From an uncultured Porphyromonadaceae bacterium (GTDB lineage: Bacteria > Bacteroidota > Bacteroidia > Bacteroidales > Muribaculaceae), in contig CAMWUD010000004.1 in assembly GCA_947177365.1 (NCBI GenBank), forward strand, positions 1 through 34,322: 34,322 nt of DNA, read 5' to 3'. Positions 31,497-34,322 of this stretch are shown one piece after another. The notes beneath the pieces are model-generated. The model saw only the letters and a list, made by a program, of their open reading frames with translations, had not been told where the DNA came from and ran no database searches. Both the position numbers and the translations under genes were made by a program. Position 1 is the stretch's first letter. Each line of letters opens with the position of its first letter.

Positions 31497-31584
31497 GGAG
31501 TGGTGCTCGAGTGGCTGAAGAGGCACGCCTGGAAAGCGTGTATACCCCAAAAGGGTATCCCGAGTTCGAATCTCGGTCACTCCG
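31497..31584 (+). tRNA. tRNA-Ser (anticodon GGA)
   Basis: 88 nt; acceptor GGAGTGG/TCACTCC, anticodon stem CACGC-CTGGAAA-GCGTG, long variable arm (TACCCCAAAAGGGTA), T-arm CCGAGTTCGAATCTCGG; CCA not encoded. Confidence 0.96.
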
Positions 31585-31587
31585 CAA

Positions 31588-31614
31588 AAGAGAGGAGTCA
31601 ATCCTCTCTTTTTT
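31588..31614 (+). terminator. Intrinsic terminator after tRNA-Ser
   Basis: AGAGAGGA-gtcaa-TCCTCTCTTTTTT. Confidence 0.85.
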
Positions 31615-31764
31615 ATACTCTGTTTTTTTGCTTCGGAGTAATACTCCGAATATTTTATACTAAAACTATGAATAATTTAAGGTTGTACTTAAGATATTTC
31701 AAACCGATACTTAAATATTAACCTCTATTCAGTATTAATCTTCAAATCAAGTATTTAGCCAATA

Positions 31765-32898
31765 ATGGATACCTTTATTCCGCGTCTCATATCGCCCAAA
31801 GTTGAGGAAGCTCACAAATATTATCCTGTAATAGTTATTACAGGCCCCCGGCAATCAGGTAAAAGCACCCTCTGCCGTAATCTTTTCCCCACATATAAGT
31901 ATGTCAATTTGGAATTTATTCCGATCCGTACCCATGCCCTGACTGATCCTGTAGGTTTCATTGATGATCTTGGAGAGTATGTCATTATAGATGAAGTGCA
32001 GTATGCCCCAGACCTGCTATCAATAATTCAGGTCAGAGTCGATGAGAATAAAAAACTCCGCTATATCCTTACAGGCAGCAACAACTTCTCTCTCTTGAAA
32101 TCAGTGACACAATCCCTTGCCGGAAGAGCCGCAGTATTCACTCTTTTGCCTTTTTCATTCAGAGAGATGAGCGACACTGAATTGGCGAAGTCCATTGATA
32201 CGCTCATGCTCCAAGGCCAATACCCGGGAGTATTGGTAGATGAGATTTCTCCTGAAATTTTTTTCAGGAATTACTACACCACCTATATAGAACGAGACTT
32301 GCGCGACCTTATCAACCTCAAGAATCTTGTAGCTTTTGATAAATTTGTAAGATTGCTGGCCACCCGTATAGGAGCCGAATTTAATGCTTCCGCTATCTCG
32401 CGCGAAGTCGGAGTGACCTCCAAGACCATCACGGAATGGCAATCCCTTCTGGCGACTTCATATATCACATATCCCTTGGCACCTTACTATAATAATCTCT
32501 CGAAAAGATTAACAAAAATACCAAAGATCTACTTCCATGATACCGGCCTTTTATGTTATCTGCTTAATATAGAGACCGTGGAGCAACTTGAGAAGCATCC
32601 TCTGAAAGAATCCATATTCGAGAATATGGCAGTTGGAGAATTAATGAAGAAAAGATTTAATGAGGCTAAAGATCCTAATCTATTTTTCTACCGTGAGCAA
32701 TCAGGGAGAGAAATAGATGTGGTCTCCATTACAGCCGAAGGTATCAATCTATACGAAATCAAAGCCGGGAAAATGCTCAGACCCGACTATCTTGAAAATC
32801 TACAATACCTTAGAGGTCTCCTCCCCAATGTAGCCCGCACCGCCGTAATCTTCAACGGAGAGACACTGGGCTCAGTCATCAACATCCGCGACATCTGA
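31765..32898 (+). CDS. AAA_14/DUF4143 family ATP-binding protein
   Basis: Walker A GPRQSGKST, Walker B YVIIDEVQYAPDLL, TGSNNFSLLKSVTQSLAGRAAVFTLLPFSFREM; C-terminal REIDVV..LYEIKAGK (PD-(D/E)xK-like). Confidence 0.93.
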   Translation: MDTFIPRLISPKVEEAHKYYPVIVITGPRQSGKSTLCRNLFPTYKYVNLEFIPIRTHALTDPVGFIDDLGEYVIIDEVQYAPDLLSIIQVRVDENKKLRYILTGSNNFSLLKSVTQSLAGRAAVFTLLPFSFREMSDTELAKSIDTLMLQGQYPGVLVDEISPEIFFRNYYTTYIERDLRDLINLKNLVAFDKFVRLLATRIGAEFNASAISREVGVTSKTITEWQSLLATSYITYPLAPYYNNLSKRLTKIPKIYFHDTGLLCYLLNIETVEQLEKHPLKESIFENMAVGELMKKRFNEAKDPNLFFYREQSGREIDVVSITAEGINLYEIKAGKMLRPDYLENLQYLRGLLPNVARTAVIFNGETLGSVINIRDI

Positions 32899-33296: not shown

Positions 33297-33304
33297 TAAC
33301 TTTG
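33297..33304 (+). promoter_or_regulatory. Putative -7 element for the Abi_2 gene
   Basis: TAACTTTG, its 3' end 8 bp from ATG 33313. Confidence 0.5.
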
Positions 33305-33312
33305 CAGTTGAT

Positions 33313-34209
33313 ATGGGACAAAAAGCCATTACATTAGACAAACAAATAGACCTGCTGCGGAGCAGAGGCATGATTATAAATGATGTCGAGAAAGCCAAAG
33401 AGGTTTTATTAGATGTCGGCTACTATCGTCTTGGTTTCTATTGGTTCCCATTAGAGAAGAGTTATCCGGAAAAGCGTAACAGGACTCACGAATTTGCTGC
33501 CGGTACAAACTTCGATGATGCGGTCAAGCTATATTATTTTGATTACAAGCTGCGTAGCATACTGTCCTATAATATCAATCGTATAGAGATTAACTTCCGC
33601 AACTTTCTGACTTACACGCTCTCCAATAATTACATAGGTAATCCCCAGTGGTTTGTAGATGATTCGATTGTAGAGGAACAGTTTGTGCAGACATTTGACA
33701 GTTCAGTTTATACGGCAAGTTTCAAGCTGAACGCAGTAATAATGCATCACCATCGTACCCATCAAGGCGATAAATACGCTCCGGCATGGAAAACAATAGA
33801 GTATATGACATTCGGCAGTGTGCTAAACCTCTATAAGGCGATAAAGGATAGGAGTCTGAAGATTGAGATTGCAAAGCATTACGGCATTCGTTATATCGAG
33901 ATACTTGAGAATTACCTTGAAATAGTACGGGAATTGCGTAACTTTTGTGCTCACGGTAATGTCCTATATGATTTTGTGCCATTCAAATACATAAGACGAG
34001 GTCCGGCTAAAGTCAAGGGCGCAAAGAATTTTCGTAATCTTAACGGTTCAATAGCAGTGGTTCTTTATATGCTCAAACAGGTTTCAGTAAACCGCTATAA
34101 TGAAATGGTCGGAGATTTACAGTCTCTTATAAAGCATTATTCTCAAGCTCCGAAAGTAGCTGAAATAATCTCAAACATAAGTGGATTAGACGCATCTCAA
34201 ATAAAATAA
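33313..34209 (+). CDS. Abi_2 family (AbiD/AbiF-type) abortive-infection HEPN protein
   Basis: 298 aa; KQIDLLRSRGMIINDVEKAKEVLLDVGYYRLGFYWFP, YYFDYKLRSILSYNINRIEINFRNFLTYTLS, HEPN Rx4H motif RNFCAH at nt 33937-33954. Confidence 0.9.
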   Translation: MGQKAITLDKQIDLLRSRGMIINDVEKAKEVLLDVGYYRLGFYWFPLEKSYPEKRNRTHEFAAGTNFDDAVKLYYFDYKLRSILSYNINRIEINFRNFLTYTLSNNYIGNPQWFVDDSIVEEQFVQTFDSSVYTASFKLNAVIMHHHRTHQGDKYAPAWKTIEYMTFGSVLNLYKAIKDRSLKIEIAKHYGIRYIEILENYLEIVRELRNFCAHGNVLYDFVPFKYIRRGPAKVKGAKNFRNLNGSIAVVLYMLKQVSVNRYNEMVGDLQSLIKHYSQAPKVAEIISNISGLDASQIK

Positions 34210-34232: not shown

Positions 34233-34262
34233 TTGTTATATCAGAAAAAATAAGTACCTTTG
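34233..34262 (+). promoter_or_regulatory. Bacteroidetes sigma(ABfr)-type promoter downstream of the Abi_2 gene
   Basis: TTG (34233-34235)-N19-TACCTTTG (34255-34262), matching the TTTG-N19-21-TAnnTTTG consensus. Confidence 0.6.
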
Positions 34263-34267
34263 CAACA

Positions 34268-34322
34268 TCATAAGTGCAGCTATCGGTTTTAGTCCCGATA
34301 CCAGCACTCTAAAAGGGAAAAG
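34268..34322 (+). ncRNA. Candidate structured small RNA downstream of Abi_2 (possible AbiF-type RNA antitoxin), truncated by the window end
   Basis: AGTGC-agc-TATCGG-TTTTAGTC-CCGATA-cca-GCACT nested stems; apical-loop TTTTAG complementary to CTAAAA at 34309-34314; dedicated promoter immediately upstream; no ORF. Confidence 0.5.

Follow-up and report, generated by a model that had tools for sequence, protein, structure and literature searches.

A two-hairpin RNA accompanying a Bacteroidales clade of AbiF-like HEPN proteins, a probable type III-like antitoxin

A small structured RNA follows the Abi_2 gene at the end of this contig, which raises the question of how the RNA folds and whether it serves as an antitoxin to its neighbor. 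The window analysed here is the entire contig (G000:C4, 1-34322; 34,322 nucleotides), and the contig end cuts the RNA in two at base 34322. From the half that is visible, the first-pass annotation had described a hairpin with an outer stem AGTGC (34273-34277)/GCACT (34304-34308) and an inner stem TATCGG (34281-34286)/CCGATA (34295-34300), and had proposed that its loop pairs with the 3' flank CTAAAA (34309-34314) in a pseudoknot resembling those of type III ToxI RNAs. Every letter and coordinate of that description is correct, and the loop bases TTTTAG are, as claimed, the exact reverse complement of CTAAAA. Analysis of homologous loci leads us to consider it likely that the window holds part of a bipartite type III-like antitoxin RNA, which is composed of two hairpins, has its own promoter and lies 3' of an AbiF-like gene (Table 1).

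Table 1. Features of the Abi_2 gene and its RNA in the window
Feature	Position	Strand	Basis
-7-like promoter element TAACTTTG ahead of Abi_2	33297..33304	+	sequence; 8 nt ahead of the ATG
HEPN protein of the Abi_2/AbiD-AbiF family (298 aa), a predicted toxin/effector	33313..34209	+	Pfam PF07751, PADLOC, phmmer, fold
TTG, -33-like element of the small RNA's own promoter	34233..34235	+	sequence; 19 nt ahead of the -7 element; homologs have one like it
TACCTTTG, -7 element of the RNA promoter	34255..34262	+	precedes the RNA in the homologs examined; consensus TAnnTTTG
Hairpin H1, outer stem AGTGC/GCACT and inner stem TATCGG/CCGATA	34273..34308	+	covariation (inner stem), invariance (outer stem), homologous RNA fold
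H1 apical loop TTTTAGTC	34287..34294	+	motif recurs in the H2 loop (TTTTGTCT, closest homologs)
A-rich linker CTAAAAGGGAAAAG; 5' part is the proposed pseudoknot partner; final G starts hairpin H2, the remainder of which falls outside the contig	34309..34322	+	

The Abi_2 protein matches Pfam PF07751 (E 2.3e-42) and the PADLOC AbiD model (E 5e-53). Among solved structures, PbAbiF is the nearest relative (PDB 8vz6; phmmer E 3.7e-29), and a Foldseek search with the predicted structure of the window protein (pLDDT 92) returned 8vz6 as the sole significant match (TM 0.80, E 1e-11). With both the Abi_2 domain and the AbiF fold, the protein belongs to the AbiF/Abi_2 HEPN group. Residues R209-x4-H214 conform to the R-x4-6-H pattern of HEPN active sites, align with R210 and H215 of PbAbiF and are invariant across 13 aligned proteins; the PbAbiF R210/H215 double mutant was reported to be inactive (PMC12373285). 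Homology makes the window protein a probable HEPN RNase. The context of the active site (window 33937-33954 and homologs) reads RNxCAHG in the clade to which the window protein belongs and RNxCxHH in most of the clade that carries abiF RNA. Only distant Abi_2 relatives, with about 33% identity or less, were among the best matches listed from plasmid and phage collections. Directly upstream of Abi_2 lies an AAA_14/DUF4143 ATPase gene (31765-32898; PADLOC candidate PDC-S01, E 2e-89), itself preceded by tRNA-Ser(GGA) (31497-31585), and this stretch (31497-32898) may represent a small defence island located at a tRNA gene.

TAnnTTTG is the consensus of the Bacteroidota promoter -7 element. A promoter of this type (TTG, 19 nt, TACCTTTG) is located between the Abi_2 stop codon and H1 and recurs in homologs; the RNA is expected to start a few nucleotides 3' of TACCTTTG. 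The Abi_2 gene is preceded by an element of the same kind, TAACTTTG, and because only 8 nt separate it from the ATG, the Abi_2 mRNA is probably nearly leaderless. TAnnTTTG occurs no more than 70 nt from the start in 25 of the 39 Abi_2 genes with the downstream-RNA arrangement.

Comparison of homologous sequences indicates that H1 is a real hairpin because its inner stem shows compensatory changes, which affect three of the six pairs while 98.8% of the cells remain paired among equal-length homologs. By the same comparison, four of the five outer-stem pairs never vary, and the near invariance of this stem means that it provides no covariation evidence either way. The calculated energy of H1 including the outer stem is -12.7 kcal/mol, versus -6.2 kcal/mol for the inner hairpin alone.

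Homologs, which were collected both by a search with the window protein and by a search with an RNA pattern, provided the complete RNA. In close homologs, a Bacteroidota promoter precedes H1 (AGTGC-inner hairpin-GCACT), which an A-rich linker joins to the strong hairpin H2; a U-tract follows. The complete RNA is ~95 nt long and has its own promoter, and the window contains its 5' half, H1. The fold of the complete homologous RNA in L002 has a z score of -6.0. The H2 stem shows compensatory changes at 5 of 11 pairs, with 99.2% of the cells paired in equal-length homologs, and H2 doubles as a predicted intrinsic terminator. Covariation was measured on alignments of equal-length members instead of all 24 RNAs; a MAFFT alignment of all 24 yielded no structure in RNAalifold because the loop lengths differ. 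In pattern-found loci, the invariance of AGTG/CACT and AAAA is partly imposed by the search pattern itself; AAAA was present throughout the first, protein-found homolog set, which was collected with no A-tract requirement. Even with permissive thresholds, a search of Rfam turned up no family relevant to the window RNA, abiF included.

The complete RNAs also offer a role for CTAAAA, namely that the A-tract (CTAAAAGGG) pairs with the U-tract of the terminator (CCTTTTTA) to form a long lower H2 stem that would sequester the 3' end. This pairing is part of the MFE structure of the complete L002 RNA, where its probability exceeds 0.95 for most of the tract, and long perfect matches were seen by eye in L014 and L041. 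However, a test of own versus swapped tracts gave p values of 0.06-0.13 only, poly-A/poly-U complementarity is trivial so close to a terminator, and the pairing is seen in homologs, H2 being cut off in the window. We regard this role as tentative and rather doubtful, albeit compatible with the antitoxin reading.

In favor of the proposal that TTTTAG in the H1 loop and CTAAAA form a ToxI-like pseudoknot, which would switch with the outer stem, are the exact 6-bp complementarity, present in the window as well as in its nearest relatives, and the fact that ToxI RNAs are pseudoknots (PMC12373285). This complementarity is weakly above chance and appears to reflect a U-rich loop opposite an A-rich tail, since composition-preserving shuffles of the 8-nt loop and the 14-nt tail gave Watson-Crick matches of at least 6 bp in 4.8% and of at least 5 bp in 19% of cases; when the same spacing was scanned over the whole window, a 6-bp match was found at 0.7% of positions. 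The alignment of equal-length homologs revealed no compensatory pairs for TTTTAG/CTAAAA, five of the six pairs departing by breaking only. Among 36 distinct loop/flank combinations, 6 bp can form in 2, 5 bp in 5, 4 bp in 4 and 3 bp or fewer in 25, and, by duplex energy, a loop fits its own flank no better than one swapped in from another lineage (p 0.88-0.92). At the family level, the loop varies while the flank stays, the very behavior that the first-pass annotation had named as speaking against its knot, and the claim of two mutually exclusive folds likewise finds no support in covariation or in the swap test. Further, the same loop motif occurs in H2 with no complementary 3' flank. Formation of the knot needs an open outer stem, at a cost of about 6.5 kcal/mol, and the loop/flank duplex would return about -1.6 kcal/mol before any pseudoknot penalty; the full 6-bp knot also leaves zero nucleotides for crossing its groove. 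The pseudoknot is, in our assessment, very improbable. The homologs suggest that 34287-34292 are unpaired, and a knot private to a few of the closest relatives may exist. Two other pairings were tried and rejected: that of the H1 loop GACTTTA with the linker TAAAGTC in L007, L008 and L010 (swap test p 0.22-0.46) and that of the H2 loop with the linker, for which own pairs scored worse than swapped ones.

H1 and H2 carry the same loop motif on unrelated stems, and the motif is lineage-specific. In the group of the window, the loops are TTTTAGTC in H1 and, from the closest relatives, TTTTGTCT in H2; elsewhere, ACTTTGTCG is found twice in L006, CCTCGTCG twice in L041, and GTAG in both loops of L043. 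The similarity of H1 and H2 loops was 5.52 within an RNA and 3.97 when loops were swapped between lineages (p 0.0024 with 7 clusters), a result that was stable over three cluster cut-offs (p 0.003 with 10 clusters and 0.0026 with 15), the test resting on these 7 to 15 clusters. The RNA contains, in the broad sense used for type III systems, a repeated unit, which is the H1/H2 loop motif (p 0.002-0.003; H2 from homologs). A loop motif that recurs on different stems would suit a protein that binds it through two identical subunits. Kissing between the H1 and H2 loops as a conserved feature was also considered, as own loops outscored swapped ones in a crude duplex calculation that took in 11-nt apical regions (p 0.007-0.04). 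However, the signal was gone when strictly unpaired loop bases were used (own 0.08 versus swapped 0.17 kcal/mol), which indicates that it was a by-product of the closing pairs of similar loops, and we give conserved kissing practically no credence.

The RNA type follows the protein phylogeny. In a tree of 80 Abi_2 proteins, rooted at its midpoint, the deepest split (support 100/100) separates 43 proteins associated with the two-hairpin RNA from 37 proteins, most of them associated with an abiF-type hairpin. Some loci in the tree were collected through their RNA; the protein-found loci are the best basis for the split, and they agree with it. In the two-hairpin clade, 42 of the 43 members were labelled with the RNA (41 by script and L040 by eye), and it was recognized by eye in the last one, L011. 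The RNA lies downstream of the gene in 39 of these sampled members and upstream in 4. In the sister clade, to which a near relative of PbAbiF (8vz6) belongs, the abiF-type hairpin is upstream of the gene in 32 of 37 (27 found by script and 5 through an Rfam match or visual inspection), and three of the remaining five have an abiF-like hairpin by eye. The proteins of the upstream-RNA members form one subclade, indicating that the gene order changed with the subclade. In these loci (L011, L012, L013/L042 and L093), H2 sits between the RNA promoter and the Abi_2 gene. One locus labelled Lachnospiraceae, L034, has a gene and RNA nearly identical to those of the Muribaculaceae locus L033, and its label is probably a binning error.

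By the RNA-pattern search alone, an Abi_2 gene adjoins 27 of 38 RNA-like loci; L072, L087, L091, L094 and G118 were left out as chance pattern matches. No Abi_2 was detected in the examined locus for the other 11, some of which are at contig ends, and the RNA is therefore not strictly tied to the gene. These data bear on a further alternative, that H1 and H2 are merely the terminator and 3' UTR of the Abi_2 mRNA. H2 with its U-tract would make a good intrinsic terminator, and the RNA starts less than 100 nt after the gene in most members. However, a promoter element sits between the gene and H1, H1 is not required for termination yet is conserved and covaries, the RNA precedes the gene in four members, and orphan copies occur with no gene. 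We consider this explanation quite unlikely.

How does the antitoxin RNA that we favor compare with those of known systems? PbAbiF and its ncRNA, AbiFr, were described by Zilberzwige-Tal et al. (Cell 2025, as given in PMC12373285 and PMC12737573), and PbAbiF was solved as a dimer with two copies of its ncRNA (PMC12373285; review PMC12737573). The window locus shares with this system a homologous protein, the R-x4-H site and a small structured RNA beside the gene. By contrast, L099, whose protein is 91% identical to PbAbiF, has a single RF03085 hairpin directly upstream, while the RNA type of the window is built from two hairpins, is mostly found 3' of the gene, comes with its own promoter and does not match RF03085. 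AbiF_Cd of Clostridioides difficile phages is toxic, and RCd22, a single RNA that contains two abiF motifs, neutralises it through direct binding; mutations that break the RCd22 stems abolish neutralisation, and compensatory ones do not (PMC12373285). Identity between the window protein and the phiC2 Abi protein is 29%, and in both cases one RNA with two copies of a hairpin, which for the window type is a putative recognition unit, lies beside an Abi_2 gene. The RCd22 repeats, however, belong to RF03085 and precede a separate terminator, all upstream of and cotranscribed with the gene, whereas the second motif of the window type is the terminator hairpin, and the sequences are unrelated. In the upstream-RNA members L011, L012, L013 and L093, H2 is placed like the RCd22 terminator, between RNA promoter and gene.

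The Rfam abiF RNA, RF03085, is likewise a small hairpin RNA tied to Abi_2 genes, and it occurs in the same bacterial family. Neither the window nor 14 homologous loci matched its covariance model, even at E values of 5-10 (up to 5 for the 14 loci), and loci of the other clade matched it at 39-61 bits. RF03085 differs from the window RNA in loop, bulge and stem layout and lies 5' of its gene, the window RNA being 3'. ToxIN resembles the locus in having an RNA antitoxin that adjoins a toxin RNase gene and in its repeated RNA units. The ToxI analogy of the first-pass annotation fails in its details, as the window protein has the HEPN fold of AbiF and not that of ToxN (8vz6 alone was significant in the fold search), and the window type has two hairpins with no covariation for the proposed knot where ToxI consists of processed pseudoknot repeats. 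What survives of that annotation is an Abi_2-linked structured RNA, likely a type III-like antitoxin given its own promoter, its presence in 43/43 sampled clade members and the AbiF precedent; its pseudoknot and two-state fold do not. Direct neutralisation of the protein by RNA was reported for the relatives AbiF_Cd and PbAbiF (PMC12373285, PMC12737573), and because the window RNA is unrelated to RF03085 in sequence and architecture, an antitoxin function is carried over to it by protein homology.

These comparisons point to one mechanism as the most likely. The AbiF-like protein would act as a dimer, and one two-hairpin RNA may bind it by offering each protomer one loop motif, giving one RNA per dimer and holding the HEPN RNase silent. 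Phage infection might then upset the RNA, or the RNA/protein balance, and release the RNase by ending neutralisation.

Cas13 and its guide RNA have been proposed to descend from AbiF and its RNA. The clean correspondence between a second RNA class, unrelated in sequence, and the deepest branch of the sampled tree suggests that such proteins can exchange or rebuild their RNA partner, a point relevant to the origin of guide RNAs. A natural comparison is that between one two-hairpin RNA per dimer, as predicted here, and two single-hairpin RNAs, and about 45 sequences are available as a set for structure work. The RNA type and its layout are new, while the pairing of AbiF with an RNA and the homologous protein were already known; our search of Rfam 15 and open-licence literature found no description of the two-hairpin RNA.

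In a broader and more speculative reading, which we hold to be possible though somewhat improbable, a deep Bacteroidales branch of AbiF-like proteins relies on a bipartite antitoxin RNA class of its own, one not related to abiF RNA, whose stem-loops evolve in step and span the dimer, the second serving as terminator. The RNA would be a separate gene after the toxin, and orphans would work in trans, perhaps protecting as antidotes when further copies of the system arrive. Two-hairpin RNAs of this orphan kind, each with a promoter and a terminator, were found in L058, L061, L069, L070, L080, L081, L082, L083, L085, L095 and L097, and they could be remnants or solo antidotes. Three of these loci (L080, L095 and L097) are near contig ends, and genome G046, which contains the orphan L070, has no match at all to the window protein.
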